A program made the position numbers and the translations under genes. A DNA stretch of 35,417 nucleotides, from positions 1 to 35,417 of the forward strand of contig PVWI01000027.1 of NCBI GenBank assembly GCA_003003725.1, in the 5' to 3' direction. Positions 2,387 to 26,565 of this stretch are shown piece after piece. The stretch is from a filamentous cyanobacterium Phorm 6. GTDB lineage: Bacteria; Cyanobacteriota; Cyanobacteriia; Cyanobacteriales; Microcoleaceae. The notes under the pieces were generated by a model, which worked only from the letters and a program-made list of their open reading frames with translations, did no database searches and was not told the origin of the DNA. Numbering within the stretch: position 1 is the stretch's first letter; each line of letters begins with the position of its first letter.

Positions 2387-2414
2387 CGATCCTCTTCGAG
2401 GGCTTCGCTAACGA
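2387..2414 (-). repeat. Short (21-bp) form of the HIP1-associated small repeat
   Basis: Twenty-one bases (2392-2412) sit between CGATC and GA, so removing them would leave CGATCGA. On the minus strand they read GTTAGCGAAGCCC, T, then CGAAGAG: the first 13 and last 7 bases of the 42-bp element found at 7122-7163 and 15501-15542. It looks like an internally deleted copy in the opposite orientation. It lies between the urtA promoter and the tRNA gene. Confidence 0.7.
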
Positions 2415-3367: not shown

Positions 3368-3474
3368 TAGTCATTAGTCATTAGTTATTAGTCATTAGTC
3401 TGTTAACTGTTAACTGTTAACTGTTAACTGTTAACTGTTAACTGTTAACTGTTAACTGTTAACTGTTAACTGTT
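3366..3474. repeat. Two adjoining heptanucleotide tandem arrays
   Basis: About five copies of TTAGTCA (3366-3400, one imperfect) are followed by ten exact copies of TGTTAAC (3401-3470) plus TGTT. They fill essentially the whole 113-base space between the HAD start codon and the methyltransferase stop codon. These are the short tandemly repeated repetitive (STRR) sequences known from filamentous cyanobacteria. No spacer structure is present, so this is not a CRISPR. Confidence 0.95.
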
Positions 3475-3480
3475 CGTACA

Positions 3481-7119: not shown

Positions 7120-7169
7120 GCGTTAGCGAAGCCCGCCCCTACGGGGGCTGCGCCAACGAAGAGGATCGC
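7120..7169. mobile_element. Small repeat in a HIP1 site: GC + 42 bp + GATCGC
   Basis: The 50 bases are identical to 15499-15548. Taking out the inner 42 (7122-7163: GTTAGCGAAGCCC...CGAAGAG) leaves GCGATCGC, an intact HIP1 octamer. The interior is partly self-complementary around GCCCGCCCCTACGGGGGC. This copy is intergenic; the other lies inside a gene. No coding capacity of its own, so any movement must depend on an outside enzyme. Confidence 0.8.
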
Positions 7170-13284: not shown

Positions 13285-13962
13285 ATGGAAGCTAATCAAG
13301 TGAATGCCGATCGAGATTTAGCGATAGAACATCAAAACGTACCAGTCGCCCATGAAGGACTGCACAACTTTTTATATAGTTCCGAGGAAGAACATGGCGC
13401 AGTCGCAGCAATTCCGGCATTAGAAAATGACGGAACGCAAATAATGCCGATCGCAGTATGGCGCGATTTAGCAACTAACGCCAAAGTCGCCGGCGTTTAT
13501 GCCGTAATCGACACTTCGCATCAAACCCAGTATATCGGTTATTCGCGAAATATCCTGCTTTCTCTCAACGGTCACATCGCCCAAAATGGCAGCGAAAATT
13601 GTGCATTCCTGCGCGTCCAAACTTTCAAATTCCCCAAGCGGGAAGAAATGGAAAGTTTGCGCGATTTTTGGATAGCAGAAATCGGGATCATTCCTCCTGG
13701 AAACGGCACAGATAGCGAAATGTGGGCGAGTACGGTAGGTGAAGCCGCGCGCGCTGCTATGTCTGCCCAGGAACAAAAAGCCTATGAAGAAAAGAAGCTG
13801 AAACTGCGCAAAGCAATGGCAGATTCGACTCTGAGTAGAGAGTTAGAAACAGCAGCAAAAAGTGATAGCGAACGTAGTAAGGATTTGGAAGCTGCGGTTG
13901 ATAATGATGACTGGAGTGCCGTAATTCAATCACAAACCCAGGAAACAAAATCCGCTGAATAA
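13285..13962 (+). CDS. GIY-YIG nuclease-domain protein
   Basis: A 225-aa protein. The GIY-YIG core spans about residues 66-135: GVY (70-72), YIG (83-85), the catalytic Arg in GYSRNI (R88), and a Glu-rich helix in KREEMESLRDFW. The first 65 residues are acidic and unrelated to a known domain; the last 90 residues are highly charged and probably helical (EEKKLKLRKAMADS, then ETAAKSDSERSKD). GIY-YIG domains cleave DNA, but this stand-alone cyanobacterial form has no studied role known to me. GGAGAA lies 10-15 bases before the ATG. Its stop is followed at once by the 51-bp tandem repeat. Confidence 0.8.
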   Translation: MEANQVNADRDLAIEHQNVPVAHEGLHNFLYSSEEEHGAVAAIPALENDGTQIMPIAVWRDLATNAKVAGVYAVIDTSHQTQYIGYSRNILLSLNGHIAQNGSENCAFLRVQTFKFPKREEMESLRDFWIAEIGIIPPGNGTDSEMWASTVGEAARAAMSAQEQKAYEEKKLKLRKAMADSTLSRELETAAKSDSERSKDLEAAVDNDDWSAVIQSQTQETKSAE

Positions 13963-13964
13963 AC

Positions 13965-14219
13965 AGGTTTGTAGTAAGGACTTTAGTCCTTCTTAGAGAG
14001 GACTTCAGTCCTTACAGGTTTGTAGTAAGGACTTTAGTCCTTCTTAGAGAGGACTTCAGTCCTTACAGGTTGGTAGTAAGGACTTTAGTCCTTCTTAGAG
14101 AGGACTTCAGTCCTTACAGGTTTGTAGTAAGGACTTTAGTCCTTCTTAGAGAGGACTTCAGTCCTTACAGGTTGGTAGTAAGGACTTTAGTCCTTCTTAG
14201 AGAGGACTTCAGTCCTTAC
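13965..14219. repeat. Five tandem copies of a 51-bp hairpin unit
   Basis: Five head-to-tail 51-bp units start at 13965, 14016, 14067, 14118 and 14169. They are identical except that copies 1, 2 and 4 read AGGTTTGTAG and copies 3 and 5 read AGGTTGGTAG. Each unit contains GTAAGGACT...AGTCCTTAC-type complementarity, so each can fold by itself or with neighbours. The array fills the space between two converging genes. There are no variable spacers, so it is not a CRISPR. Confidence 0.95.
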
Positions 14220-14237
14220 TACAAACTTTTTTGATAA

Positions 14238-15092
14238 CTAACAACTAATTTTCCGTTCTTTAATTAAAGTCAAACTTATCCATTCACCTTTGTCATTATA
14301 ACTGCGGATCATCCGAAATCGCAAATCTGGTTCAACTAACCAGCCAGCCTCGAAAAAAACAGGTTTTCTGAGTTCAACTTTAACAGGGATTGTGCAAGAA
14401 CTGCCATCGGGAAGCAATAAGACTTGCATCGGTGTAGCACCTTGGTTAAAATTAATCACCGAACCGTCAATGATGCCTCCAGAAGTGATAATCTCAGGAT
14501 CAGTATTAGTGCCAAAGGTAATTTTCTGAATTAGGCGATCGGCATTTTCTAAATGTAATTGTAATTTGGTAGCATAACAGTCAGGATTTCGCCAATCTGG
14601 ATACATTGTAACTGCTTCCCCATGCCATTCTCCCAGTAAATCGTCAATAGTTAAAGGCGGACGTTCGGGGATATTTTTATCTGGTTGCTTTTCCCGAATT
14701 AAGGTAAGTGTTGATAAATCGCCATTGGTATTGTACAACTGAACGAACCGCAATCGGCGATAATTATAGATGAAACAAAACTCGGCCCCAGACTCAGCAA
14801 ACGGCGCTATTTGAATAGTACCTTGACAAAAAGATCCGTTCTCGAAAAATAGAATATCCCGTCCCACATTCTGATATTCTCTAACTATTTCGCGAACTTC
14901 TGGTGCACCGACACCGCTGGGATTTGGGTAAAACCGCTGGAGTTTTAAACGTACAGTTTTGTTGTCATTCAGACCTTCGAGGGCAATAATACTAGGAGTA
15001 TCTTGAACTACTTCTCCCCGTGGCGATAACTGAGTAAAGGAACCGTGCCATTCTCCCAGATTTTGTAGAAAATTTTCCCATTGCGATCCCAT
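14238..15092 (-). CDS. DUF3598 (lipocalin-like) protein with internal duplication
   Basis: A 284-aa cyanobacterial protein. Two halves resemble each other: LGEWHGSFTQLSPRGE (12-27) against LGEWHGEAVTMYPDW (about 152-166), and LYNTNGDLSTLTLIREKQ (about 120-137) against SYNDKGEWISLTLIKERK (near the end). This fits a pair of lipocalin/calycin-like barrels as in DUF3598. No signal peptide or membrane segment, so cytosolic. Such barrels bind small hydrophobic ligands or chromophores, but no ligand is known to me. The start ATG at 15092 is supported by the first GEWHG unit lying directly after it. Confidence 0.8.
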   Translation of the reverse strand: MGSQWENFLQNLGEWHGSFTQLSPRGEVVQDTPSIIALEGLNDNKTVRLKLQRFYPNPSGVGAPEVREIVREYQNVGRDILFFENGSFCQGTIQIAPFAESGAEFCFIYNYRRLRFVQLYNTNGDLSTLTLIREKQPDKNIPERPPLTIDDLLGEWHGEAVTMYPDWRNPDCYATKLQLHLENADRLIQKITFGTNTDPEIITSGGIIDGSVINFNQGATPMQVLLLPDGSSCTIPVKVELRKPVFFEAGWLVEPDLRFRMIRSYNDKGEWISLTLIKERKISC

Positions 15093-15174: not shown

Positions 15175-16026
15175 ATGTCTAAAAATAGAATTATAACTCT
15201 ACTGACGGATTTTGGATTAAGCGATGTTTATGTGGGAGTGATGAAAGGTACGATCGCCCAAATTAACCCACAACTCAAAGTCATTGACATTACCCACGAT
15301 ATACCTGCTCAAAATATAGCAGCGGGGAGGTTTTGTTTGATGAATGCTTTTGCTTATTTTCCCACAGAAACGGTACACATTGCTGTCGTCGATCCGGGTG
15401 TGGGAAGTAGCAGAAGGGCGATCGCCATTCAATGTGCTAATTTCTACCTTGTGGGGCCCGATAACGGGTTGTTTAGCGGGGTGTTGAGTCGGGAAAGTGC
15501 GTTAGCGAAGCCCGCCCCTACGGGGGCTGCGCCAACGAAGAGGATCGCCTCTGTCGAACTCACCAACCCCCAATATTGGCGTACACCTCAACCCAGCAGC
15601 ACTTTTCACGGTCGAGATATTTTCGCTGCTGTGGGCGCTCATTTGGCGACTGGGGTGCGGTTGGAAGAGTTGGGAAGGGCGATCGACGTTGCAAGTTTAG
15701 TCCAGTTACAGATACCAAATTGTGTCGTTACAGCCACCGGTATCGAAGGCTGTATCCAATATTGCGATCGGTTTGGCAACCTAATTACTAATATCCCAGA
15801 ACATTGCATTAAAAGCAACAATTGGTCAGTAAAAATTAGTAATAGTTCTGATCCAATTACCATACCCAGCGGCAAAACCTACAGCGACAGTAAACCGGGA
15901 GATTTAGTTGCCATAATAGGTTCTGAGGGCTGCGTAGAGATTTCTGTCAACGGCGGTAGCGCTCAATCTGTACTAAAATTGGAGTTTGGTGCGATCGTGC
16001 AATTGCTTTTTGACTTCAATAATTAA
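15175..16026 (+). CDS. SAM hydrolase / SAM hydroxide adenosyltransferase family protein (DUF62) with a repeat-encoded insert
   Basis: A 283-aa member of the fluorinase-like DUF62 family, whose bacterial members split SAM with water into adenosine and methionine. Markers: LLTDFGLSDVYVGVMKG (9-25), VVDPGVGSSRRA, LVGPDNGLFSGV, TFHGRDIFAAVGAHLATG, and CDRFGNLITNI in the C-terminal barrel. Between SA and IASVEL a run of 14 residues, LAKPAPTGAAPTKR, is encoded by the 42-bp small repeat (15501-15542). Without it the DNA reads GAAAGTGCGATCGCCTCT, giving ESAIAS through a HIP1 site. The insert is in frame and lies in a likely loop after GLFSGVLSRE, so activity may persist. No clear ribosome-binding site; the heptamer array touches the start. 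Confidence 0.88.
   Translation: MSKNRIITLLTDFGLSDVYVGVMKGTIAQINPQLKVIDITHDIPAQNIAAGRFCLMNAFAYFPTETVHIAVVDPGVGSSRRAIAIQCANFYLVGPDNGLFSGVLSRESALAKPAPTGAAPTKRIASVELTNPQYWRTPQPSSTFHGRDIFAAVGAHLATGVRLEELGRAIDVASLVQLQIPNCVVTATGIEGCIQYCDRFGNLITNIPEHCIKSNNWSVKISNSSDPITIPSGKTYSDSKPGDLVAIIGSEGCVEISVNGGSAQSVLKLEFGAIVQLLFDFNN
15499..15548. mobile_element. HIP1-site small repeat inserted in frame in a coding region
   Basis: All 50 bases equal 7120-7169, with flanks differing immediately outside. The inner 42 bases split GC from GATCGC of a HIP1 octamer. Because 42 is a multiple of three and the frame used has no stop, the host gene stays open. Confidence 0.85.
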
Positions 16027-22874: not shown

Positions 22875-22989
22875 AGCAAGAAGGAGGAAAATAGAACTAA
22901 GAATTACCAAACAAGAATCAACCCAAAACATAATCTTACCGATTAATTACAAGTTTTTTTCTTTGTTCTTCCTTCTTCCTTCTGACTAA

Positions 22990-23034
22990 TGACAACTAAC
23001 AACTGTCAACTGTCAACTGTCAACTGTCAACTGA
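22990..23034. repeat. Heptamer array AACTGTC
   Basis: About five copies of AACTGTC follow GACAACTAACAACTGTC and end three bases before the rpsN stop codon. Confidence 0.88.
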
Positions 23035-23037
23035 CTT

Positions 23038-23340
23038 CTACCAGCTAGACTTCACAACACCGGGCAAAAGGCCTTCGTGAGCCATTTCTCGCATCACGTT
23101 GCGAGACAGTCCGAAGTCGCGATAGTAACCTCTGGGACGACCAGTGGCCCAGCAGCGGTTCCGCAAGCGAGTCCGCGAACTGCTGCGGGGTAGCTGTTGC
23201 AGTTCGCGGTGAATCGCCATTTTGTCCATCTGATTGGCAGCTTGGTCGAACTGGTCTTTCAGGTCAGCGCGCTTGTCAGCGTACTTGTCTACGAGTGCTT
23301 GGCGCTTTTTTTCGCGCTGGATCATGCTCTTTTTCGCCAT
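23038..23340 (-). CDS. rpsN: 30S ribosomal protein S14
   Basis: A 100-aa S14 of the long, zinc-free type: [13 protein letters not shown] at the start, [16 protein letters not shown] in the middle, and the signature [20 protein letters not shown] followed by [11 protein letters not shown]. It binds 16S rRNA in the head of the small subunit. It is alone here, not in the main ribosomal operon, which is usual in cyanobacteria. AT-rich sequence upstream (23341-23400) probably holds the promoter. Confidence 0.97.
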
Positions 23341-25371: not shown

Positions 25372-25467
25372 GGGCATCGGGCATCGGGCATTGGGCATTA
25401 GCTATTAGTTAGTTGCCATCAATAACGAATAACCAATAACCAATAACCAATAACCAATAACCAATAA
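25372..25467. repeat. Heptamer arrays GGGCATC/GGGCATT and AACCAAT
   Basis: Four units of GGGCATC/T (25372-25400) and five or more units of AACCAAT (25430-25466) fill the space up to the rseP stop codon. Confidence 0.88.
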
Positions 25468-26565
25468 CTATTGCTGCATGAGACTTCGGAAATCGAACCC
25501 AGCCAAATTAGCTGTATCCCTAACAATCAAGAAAATTCCCAAACCCAGCAATAGCACCAAACCAGTCTGCATCACATTTTCCTGAATCTTGTTAGGCAAC
25601 GGTTTACCCCGCAGTCCTTCTATTAACAAAAAAGCTAGCTGACCGCCGTCCAAAGCAGGTAAAGGCAAGATATTAATCACAGCCAAATTGATGCTAATTA
25701 GCACAGCATACTGAAACAAACTCGCTGCATCCGATCGCGCAATCCCTGCACCAATAGCCACAATCGCCACCGGCCCGGACAACTTTTCGGCAGTCTGACT
25801 GAAATTGCTAGCTAACTGCCCGAAACCTTGAAACGTCAGCACTACAATCCGCTCAAATTCGGTCGCCGCTTTCGTAAACGCCTCTACAATTCCGGCGCGC
25901 TGCCGCACGACAGTACCATTAGAACTTAGCTGAACGCCAATCCGACCTTTGCCGTCTGGTGCCAATTCGGGAGTGACTGTCACCACAAATTTTTGTTCTT
26001 GGCGCTGAATTTCTAGCCCTAGGGGTTTGTTGGGATTATTTTGGATTGCTGCGACTAGAGATTTGATTGCTTCAGCCGAAGCGCCCAATTCTTTGCCGTC
26101 AACAGACAGAACAATGTCGCCCGATTGAATTCCCGCTAGTTTCGCCGCCGAACTGACTTGGGCCGCCACTTCCGGGACTTTAACTCCCGGTAGGTAGTTC
26201 AGGGATGCCGCACCGACAGTGGTCAATTGCACCACCAGCAGGAAATAAGCAAAAATTAAGTTAGCAATAACTCCTGCACTAATGACGATCGCCCGATCGA
26301 GCACAGGCCGATTTTTGAGCAAATTCGGGTCATTTGGAGGGATACTGCTTTCGGGATCGTCATCGGGAAAACCCACGAAACCTCCCAGGGGAAAGGCGCG
26401 GAGGGCGTATTCAGTTTCCGGGCCTTGGTACTTCCAGAGGACGGGGCCGAAGCCAATCGAAAAGCGGTTGACGTGGATGTGTTGAAGTCTCGCCGCCAGG
26501 AAGTGGCCGAGTTCGTGAACGACAATGAGGATACCTAAAACTGCGATCGCTGCCAAAACTGACAT
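25468..26565 (-). CDS. rseP: RIP metalloprotease RseP (site-2 protease)
   Basis: An intramembrane zinc protease of 365 aa from the ATG at 26565 (MSVLAAIAVLGILIVV). The metal motif HELGH (residues 17-21) is in the first membrane segment; a PDZ domain follows (about 120-200, IQSGDIVLSVDGKEL); the second metal motif is NILPLPALDGGQLAFLL in a later segment. It cleaves membrane-bound anti-sigma or regulatory proteins. An upstream TTG at 26577 would add MESF; the ATG fits the family start and has GGAA 9-12 bases upstream. Nothing in the surroundings names its substrate. Confidence 0.95.
   Translation of the reverse strand: MSVLAAIAVLGILIVVHELGHFLAARLQHIHVNRFSIGFGPVLWKYQGPETEYALRAFPLGGFVGFPDDDPESSIPPNDPNLLKNRPVLDRAIVISAGVIANLIFAYFLLVVQLTTVGAASLNYLPGVKVPEVAAQVSSAAKLAGIQSGDIVLSVDGKELGASAEAIKSLVAAIQNNPNKPLGLEIQRQEQKFVVTVTPELAPDGKGRIGVQLSSNGTVVRQRAGIVEAFTKAATEFERIVVLTFQGFGQLASNFSQTAEKLSGPVAIVAIGAGIARSDAASLFQYAVLISINLAVINILPLPALDGGQLAFLLIEGLRGKPLPNKIQENVMQTGLVLLLGLGIFLIVRDTANLAGFDFRSLMQQ

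Follow-up and report, generated by a model that had tools for sequence, protein, structure and literature searches.

An SDR5-like 21-bp dispersed repeat at CGATCG sites of the filamentous cyanobacterium Phorm 6 and its relatives

How does one 42-bp sequence come to lie at two places of a cyanobacterial contig, once in frame inside the gene of a conserved enzyme and once between genes, each time within a HIP1 octamer? The window analyzed here, a stretch of 35,417 nucleotides from the filamentous cyanobacterium Phorm 6 (contig PVWI01000027.1), holds both of these copies and a third, of 21 bp, on the opposite strand. An earlier note, made from the sequence alone, had proposed a family of tiny elements that target HIP1/GATCG sites and are selected, or built, to keep reading frames open. 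The features concerned are as follows, with a slash marking the point of insertion.

15175..16026, + strand: host gene, encoding a SAM hydroxide adenosyltransferase (Pfam domains SAM_HAT_N and SAM_HAT_C; the protein has relatives in the PDB)
15499..15500, + strand: GC, left part of the target of the 15501 copy (empty allele GC/GATCGC in 11 of 13 empty relatives; junction ambiguous by one G)
15501..15542, + strand: 42-bp element, a 21-bp unit expanded by a hairpin; in frame, adding LAKPAPTGAAPTKR
15543..15548, + strand: GATCGC, right part of the target of the 15501 copy
7120..7121, + strand: GC, left part of the target of the 7122 copy
7122..7163, + strand: intergenic 42-bp copy, identical over 50 bases including flanks to 15499-15548
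7164..7169, + strand: GATCGC, right part of the target of the 7122 copy
2392..2412, - strand: intergenic 21-bp unit copy in TTC/GATCGT, empty in the related genome G024
2387..2391, - strand: GATCG, one half of the target into which the 2392 copy inserted

Comparison of the window sequence upheld the identity that the earlier note had reported between the 50-base stretches at 7120-7169 and 15499-15548. Deletion of 15501-15542 does restore GCGATCGC, and the residues added are indeed LAKPAPTGAAPTKR, the frame across the insert reading RES-A-LAKPAPTGAAPTKR-IASVEL. Elsewhere in the window, a tRNA-Ala gene (anticodon cgc) occupies 2439-2511 and contains a HIP1 octamer at 2476-2483; about six tandem 51-bp units, each with an internal inverted repeat, lie at 13912-14270; and arrays of heptamer and 14-base repeats (e.g., CTGTTAA) occur at 3386-3476, 25400-25486, and 22982-23044.

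Unit, target, and reading frames

The 13-mer GTTAGCGAAGCCC occurs 43 times in the 6.64-Mb genome of Phorm 6, as compared with no occurrence of a reversed control, and its dispersal is therefore not due to chance. Of these copies, 33 are 21 bp long and 10 are 42 bp long. Across loci of the genus, a search pattern admitting lengths from 21 to about 50 bp recovered 242 copies with distinct flanks at 159 sites, comprising 198 of 21 bp, 42 of 42 bp, one of 39 bp, and one of 40 bp. The unit is thus 21 bp, with the sequence GTTAGCGAAGCCCTCGAAGAG or, when read one base later, TTAGCGAAGC-CCTC-GAA-GAGG, and the 42-bp form is an expansion of it. The 2392 copy had been described as internally shortened; this is wrong, since most copies in the genome (33 of 43) have 21 bp and the 42-bp form is the expanded one. 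Origin of the 21-bp form by plain deletion from the 42-bp form was considered and rejected, the shorter form being commoner and having a T that is absent from the longer. Nor does simple insertion into the 21-bp form explain the 42-bp form, in which one T is also replaced. Two Phorm 6 copies (L017 and L041) are composites in which a 21-mer is joined via GATTTA to the 3′ half of the 42-bp form; in L041 the frame is still open.

The base preceding the element is C in all 43 copies of the genome, and the five bases following it are GATCG in 38, GAGCG in three, and GATTT in two; the second base leftward of the element varies (G in 15, C in 14, T in 13, A in one). The full HIP1 octamer GC/GATCGC accordingly surrounds 11 copies, and C/GATCG surrounds 38. 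The target is a CGATCG core with oriented flanks, and not strictly HIP1. Insertion that is precise and directed to HIP1-type sites, as the earlier note had proposed, thus stands, while a strict octamer (11 of 43) does not. That note had counted genome copies mostly lacking GC/GATCGC flanks as evidence against its proposal; taken literally, most copies do lack them, yet C/GATCG is kept in 38 of 43.

A comparison of 207 distinct occupied contexts, some of them orthologous to one another, with 6606 background CGATCG contexts yielded the flank preference AAAGYBC/GATCGCMC: A at positions −7 to −5, G at −4, a pyrimidine at −3, any base except A at −2, C at +6, C or A at +7, and C at +8. The motif AAG[CT][GCT]C precedes the element at 28.5% of occupied sites, as against 4.0% of background sites. 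A palindromic core is unable to set the orientation of an insertion; flanks of this kind could do so.

Within the Phorm 6 genome, 22 of the 43 copies lie in ORFs of at least 150 aa. A Pfam scan of 20 of these 22 host ORFs gave matches that include LysR, PsbP, histidine kinases, cation efflux, ThiF, WD40, and SAM hydroxide adenosyltransferase; three of the 20 had no Pfam match. Copies of 21 and 42 bp are divided alike inside such ORFs (17 and 5) and elsewhere (16 and 5), so that a length in multiples of three is an intrinsic property of the element itself. The earlier note's observation of such lengths was borne out almost without exception. The 21-mer is open in four of its six frames and the 42-mer in three of six. 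Among 103 copies whose empty-site ORF would span at least 200 aa, five interrupt the ORF, all of them 21 bp long. Simulated placement at CGATCG sites of ORFs of at least 200 aa, in both orientations, produced interruptions in 800 of 3116 cases for the 21-mer and 1050 of 3116 for the 42-mer; the effect size is rough, as the copies are partly orthologous and their targets possibly phase-biased. Stop-bearing frames are depleted, and the frames show selection. The alternatives "selected" and "built" thus both apply, the length being intrinsic and interruptions falling from the simulated 800 of 3116 to 5 of 103.

Empty and filled alleles

The site orthologous to 15499 was sought by its flanks in 29 genomes of the genus, matched in 27, and resolved in 24. 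It is empty in 13 of these, reading exactly GC/GATCGC in 11 and carrying core substitutions in two. Among the 11 occupied alleles, seven hold a 21-mer and two hold the 42-bp hairpin form (one of them that of the window), these two differing from each other by two bases. One further allele holds a different 42-bp form, a 21-mer with a second 21-mer, TTAGCGAAGCGATCCGAAGGA, inside it between GCG and A; the last holds 63 bp combining both 42-bp forms.

At 7120, the junction was read in five of 29 rows (Phorm 6, G010, G024, G028, and G022): the site is empty with GC/GATCGC in G010 and G022, empty with GC/GAGCGC in G024, and filled with a 21-mer in G028. A sixth row (L226) reads empty, CAA/TATCGC, after a long extrapolation and is doubtful; the other rows were left unused, most alignments ending short of the junction. 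The surroundings of the 2392 site are too variable for a wide survey across genomes, and the empty allele there comes from G024, with the sequence TTCGATCGTA. In this allele the CGATCG core is present and the outer HIP1 bases are absent.

The comparison with sister strains that the earlier note had suggested therefore found empty alleles at all three window sites (15499, 7120, and 2392). Apart from the insert itself, the filled alleles have neither gained nor lost bases relative to the empty ones; a one-base (G) ambiguity of the junction makes C^GATCG and CG^ATCG indistinguishable. Precise insertion is shown directly, as each of the three window sites and one further site have empty alleles. 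At the site orthologous to another copy, L001, genome G012 carries a different insertion (L277) of about 129 bp with inverted sequence, just before GATCGCC.

Nearly invariant flanks might also mean that C and GATCG are the two ends of an element exceeding 21 bp that inserts at no particular site; flanks of filled copies are in themselves unable to separate element from target. The empty alleles refute this explanation and leave it highly improbable, since they themselves hold CGATCG (11 of 13 at 15499; G010 and G022 at 7120; G024 at 2392); C and GATCG were accordingly rejected as parts of the element. An ordinary lineage-specific protein indel, conserved for function, would be consistent with an insert lying in frame in a conserved enzyme. 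This explanation is scarcely tenable: the same DNA is intergenic at 7120, related copies sit in unrelated genes and in four frames, which refutes it, and the insert is missing from 13 of the 24 resolved genomes of the genus.

Alleles of this kind, empty and filled at defined codons of orthologous genes in close relatives, allow direct tests of movement, target choice, and turnover, and link all three to the question of the roles of HIP1 and of its GATC and CGATCG methyltransferases. Enzymes of this type recognize the inner GATC and CGATCG of HIP1, according to a published account (PMC4390886).

Turnover and probable re-use of sites

On a genus tree of 29 genomes (3556 columns, element excluded), presence at 15499 requires at least five changes among 24 genomes, and eight changes if all states are considered. 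Presence at the L001 site requires at least six among 28 genomes, seven of them occupied; here the G012 row, with its different insertion, was excluded, and several of the 21 "empty" rows were extrapolated by up to 35 bases. Gain and loss are not distinguishable in these counts. Trees built from the local flanks also require five changes at 15499 and six at the L001 site.

Sharing of sites between genomes is nearly flat with distance. Phorm 6 (42 copies by a two-part pattern) has 8 and 6 sites in common with two relatives at distances of 3.8 and 5.2%, as compared with 9 and 6 for two at 11.7 and 11.3%. Five genomes compared in all ten combinations gave 8, 6, 5, and 12 common sites for the four close pairs and 9, 6, 8, 6, 5, and 6 for the six distant ones. 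The close pair G008/G001 is the exception, with 12 sites in common (of 32 and 20 copies). These counts are lower bounds, as the assemblies of the relatives are drafts and only exact seeds were used; they also vary with the search, in that counts of 8, 6, and 5 obtained with the two-part pattern, 200-base flanks, and E 1e-5 become 5, 7, and 7 with the 13-mer as seed, 150-base flanks, and E 1e-8. Length differs in 20 of 71 shared pairs, and mixed lengths occur at 14 of 46 multi-copy sites.

Copies at a shared site are also closely alike. The seven 21-bp copies at 15499 show no substitutions as compared with 9.3 expected (P 9e-5; the four longer copies excluded), and the seven 21-bp copies at the L001 site show two as compared with 11.5 expected (P 8e-4), where the test presumes a single insertion in the ancestor and a substitution rate averaged over mostly coding columns. 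The presence changes (at least five and at least six), the near-flat sharing with distance, and the excess of likeness among shared copies together suggest repeated insertion at preferred sites. A more specific version of this reading, which we advance tentatively and at somewhat less than even odds, is that in separate lineages the 21-nt sequence homes repeatedly to the same favored C^GATCG sites, which cycle between empty, 21, 42, and 63 bp, and that it is guided there by recognizing, in an oriented manner, about 16 bases that surround the HIP1 core.

Patchy presence could alternatively reflect old insertions, dating from the ancestor of the genus, that were lost many times by precise excision. 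None of the 46 multi-copy sites is occupied in opposite orientations in different genomes, as common descent with precise loss predicts and as strict setting of orientation by the flanks would predict too; the single opposite-orientation pair is a head-to-head pair inside L032. Five of nine Phorm 6 sites common to G008 or G001 also occur in G010 or G024, and the 12 common sites of the close pair G008/G001 likewise fit ancestral insertion. The 21-bp copies are, however, too alike for such an age (0 and 2 substitutions against 9.3 and 11.5 expected), length is unequal in the same 20 of 71 shared pairs, and the octamer is intact in 11 of 13 empty 15499 alleles although only one base of microhomology would be available to guide a deletion. 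Ancestral insertion followed by loss is thus an unlikely explanation.

Exchange of short tracts between lineages, by homologous recombination or gene conversion, could instead have spread filled, empty, 21-, and 42-bp alleles. Such exchange would account for the near-flat sharing with distance, for near-identical elements in diverged genes, and for the mixed lengths at 14 of 46 multi-copy sites. However, at the two sites tested, the trees of the local flanks still need five and six changes, and in G026 the L001-site copy has flanks similar to those of the sister genome G006 (L269 as compared with L271), so that any exchanged tract must be tiny. We regard this explanation as a live rival, though an improbable one, if a little less so than ancestral insertion. 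For repeated insertion at preferred sites, both in its homing version and as part of the SDR5-like explanation set out below, our confidence is slightly lowered by the G008/G001 pair, by the single covarying column pair of the wider family, and by the lack of the wider form in the Phorm 6 genome.

Wider family, known repeats, and a possible mechanism

The two-part pattern was found in 29 of 59 genomes: Phorm 6, all 28 others of the same genus, and none of 30 others of the family and order. Among the matches listed (80 of at least 113 stretches), named records with the 21-mer belong to Microcoleus, Tychonema, and Lyngbya sp. CCAP 1446/10, and further carriers are assemblies with loose names (cyanobacterial or Oscillatoriales). 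The gapped pattern also matched in Lonsdalea and Niabella, which was rejected as chance; their rows fall within the 144 "others" of the context tally and were excluded by their flanks from the occupied sets used for flank preference, length, and ORF interruption. A plasmid search with a 30-mer returned, among 40 of 44 matches listed, Oscillatoria nigro-viridis PCC 7112 as the sole cyanobacterium (two records, 89 and 92% identity). No account of the present family in Microcoleus was found in the literature searched, in which subscription papers were mostly not covered.

Beyond the genus, the arm CGTTAGCGAAGC occurs in 103 of 386 genomes of the phylum and is frequent in a second family of the order as well as in scattered genera. 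Several of the occurrences inspected proved to be other repeats or plain sequence. A stricter wider form, TTAGCGAAGCNNNCCGNAGGN before ATCG (a 21-mer TTAGCGAAGC-NNNCC-GNA-GGN, then ATCG), was found in 36 of 386 genomes, as compared with none for a reversed control. The strict form has no copy in the Phorm 6 genome and a single copy in one of the seven same-genus genomes searched, Phorm 6 included. Copies of this wider family have GCG as left flank in 30 of 34 cases, which lay outside the search pattern, and C after ATCG in 33 of 34, the right-hand ATCG itself having been part of the pattern.

In 33 of 34 wider-family copies, the bases immediately before CC and immediately after GG are complementary (A-T, G-C, T-A, or C-G). 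Covariation score, share of paired cells, and double changes over 20 distinct rows were reached by none of 500 shuffles; two of the five measures were no higher than in shuffles, and one column pair carries the signal. Fold energies of the element of Phorm 6 and its genus are not better than those of shuffles (z −0.88 for the 21-mer with flanks, −1.20 for the 42-mer with flanks, and +0.48 for the bare 21-mer), and the hairpin proposed for the genus accordingly draws on the covariation of the wider family.

Several known repeats resemble the element in part. Rickettsia palindromic elements are short palindromic repeats kept in frame inside genes, about 100-150 bp long and without a fixed target octamer; on this description they share in-frame short repeats with the present family, and their larger size and lack of a fixed octamer set them apart. 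Closer is SDR5, reportedly described by Elhai et al. in 2008 as a small dispersed repeat of 21-27 nt in Nostoc and relatives, said to lie exclusively within HIP1 (GCGATCGC), to form a hairpin with compensatory changes, and to have been inferred to be mobile, perhaps by an RNA-mediated route. The unit here is equally tiny, 198 of 242 copies having a length (21 bp) within the range reported for SDR5, whereas the 42 copies of 42 bp and the single copies of 39 and 40 bp fall outside it. In their flanks the 21-mers of other genera come closer to HIP1, with GCG on the left in 30 of 34 and C after ATCG in 33 of 34. As to compensatory changes, one stem position of this wider family pairs in 33 of 34 copies with four pair types, which amounts to a single covarying column pair. 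The family of Phorm 6 differs from SDR5 in that the full octamer surrounds only 11 of 43 copies, whereas SDR5 is reportedly confined to HIP1; in its stem, CCTC-GAA-GAGG; and in its 42- and 63-bp forms and orthologous empty sites.

A published account places SDR5 insertions precisely between nucleotides 3 and 4 of HIP1 (PMC4390886), and the alleles observed here match this position within their one-base ambiguity. HIP1 as an insertion target, which the earlier note had singled out as the point to test, is therefore not new; because precise insertion into HIP1 is already in print for SDR5, the family described here is an SDR5-like variant. New are the empty alleles observed directly in close relatives, the series of 0, 21, 42, and 63 bp at a single codon, and the evidence of site re-use.

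These data are best explained, with a probability that we put at roughly two in three, by a non-autonomous SDR5-like small dispersed repeat with a 21-nt unit, inserted precisely and in an oriented manner at C^GATCG, and repeatedly at preferred sites, via a hairpin intermediate. The 21-nt unit together with the right half of the target could fold as a hairpin. Insertion is precise, at C^GATCG or equivalently CG^ATCG, with one orientation favored by the target flanks and with no duplication or loss of target bases. The 42- and 63-nt forms exceed the unit in steps of 21, and one such step is itself a 21-mer of a type known from other cyanobacteria, inserted at GCG^A within the first. Copying may proceed via a single-stranded hairpin (RNA or ssDNA), which an enzyme acting in trans would join to the target at a nick beside GATC; we infer this from the absence of target duplication, the oriented target, the hairpin potential, and the fit with a size of 21 nt. 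Insertions in genes are often tolerated, since the unit is 21 nt long and four of six frames are open, and selection would remove those that bring a stop.

To our knowledge, no enzyme is known for the smallest proposed mobile elements, and 21 nt is far below the size of any element for which we can name a transposition enzyme. Neither an enzyme nor a source RNA was found in the Phorm 6 genome, where none of the eight RVT_1 and two Y1_Tnp loci lies beside a copy. The RVT_1 contigs hold none of the 43 copies, and one Y1_Tnp contig carries a copy about 34 kb from the Y1_Tnp locus; a reverse transcriptase or Y1 transposase adjoining the copies was thus rejected for this genome.

REPINs are likewise small, hairpin-forming, non-autonomous, and dispersed, and are described as inverted doublets associated with a RAYT gene (PMC3116915). 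The present family differs in consisting of single 21-mers, 22 of 43 of them in ORFs of at least 150 aa, with neither Y1_Tnp locus beside a copy. In Phorm 6, 41 of 43 copies are not head-to-head; the two in L032 are. Pairs also occur in other genomes (L186, L187, and L300). In G024 (contig C34), L300 and L302 are head-to-head copies about 90 bp apart, and in one of them the hairpin loop is TTC and not GAA, which looks like an inversion of the loop between the members of the pair. L186 in G001 and L187 in G008 mark inverted copies about 138 bp apart in both genomes, enclosing a segment that has copies of the element as its inverted ends.
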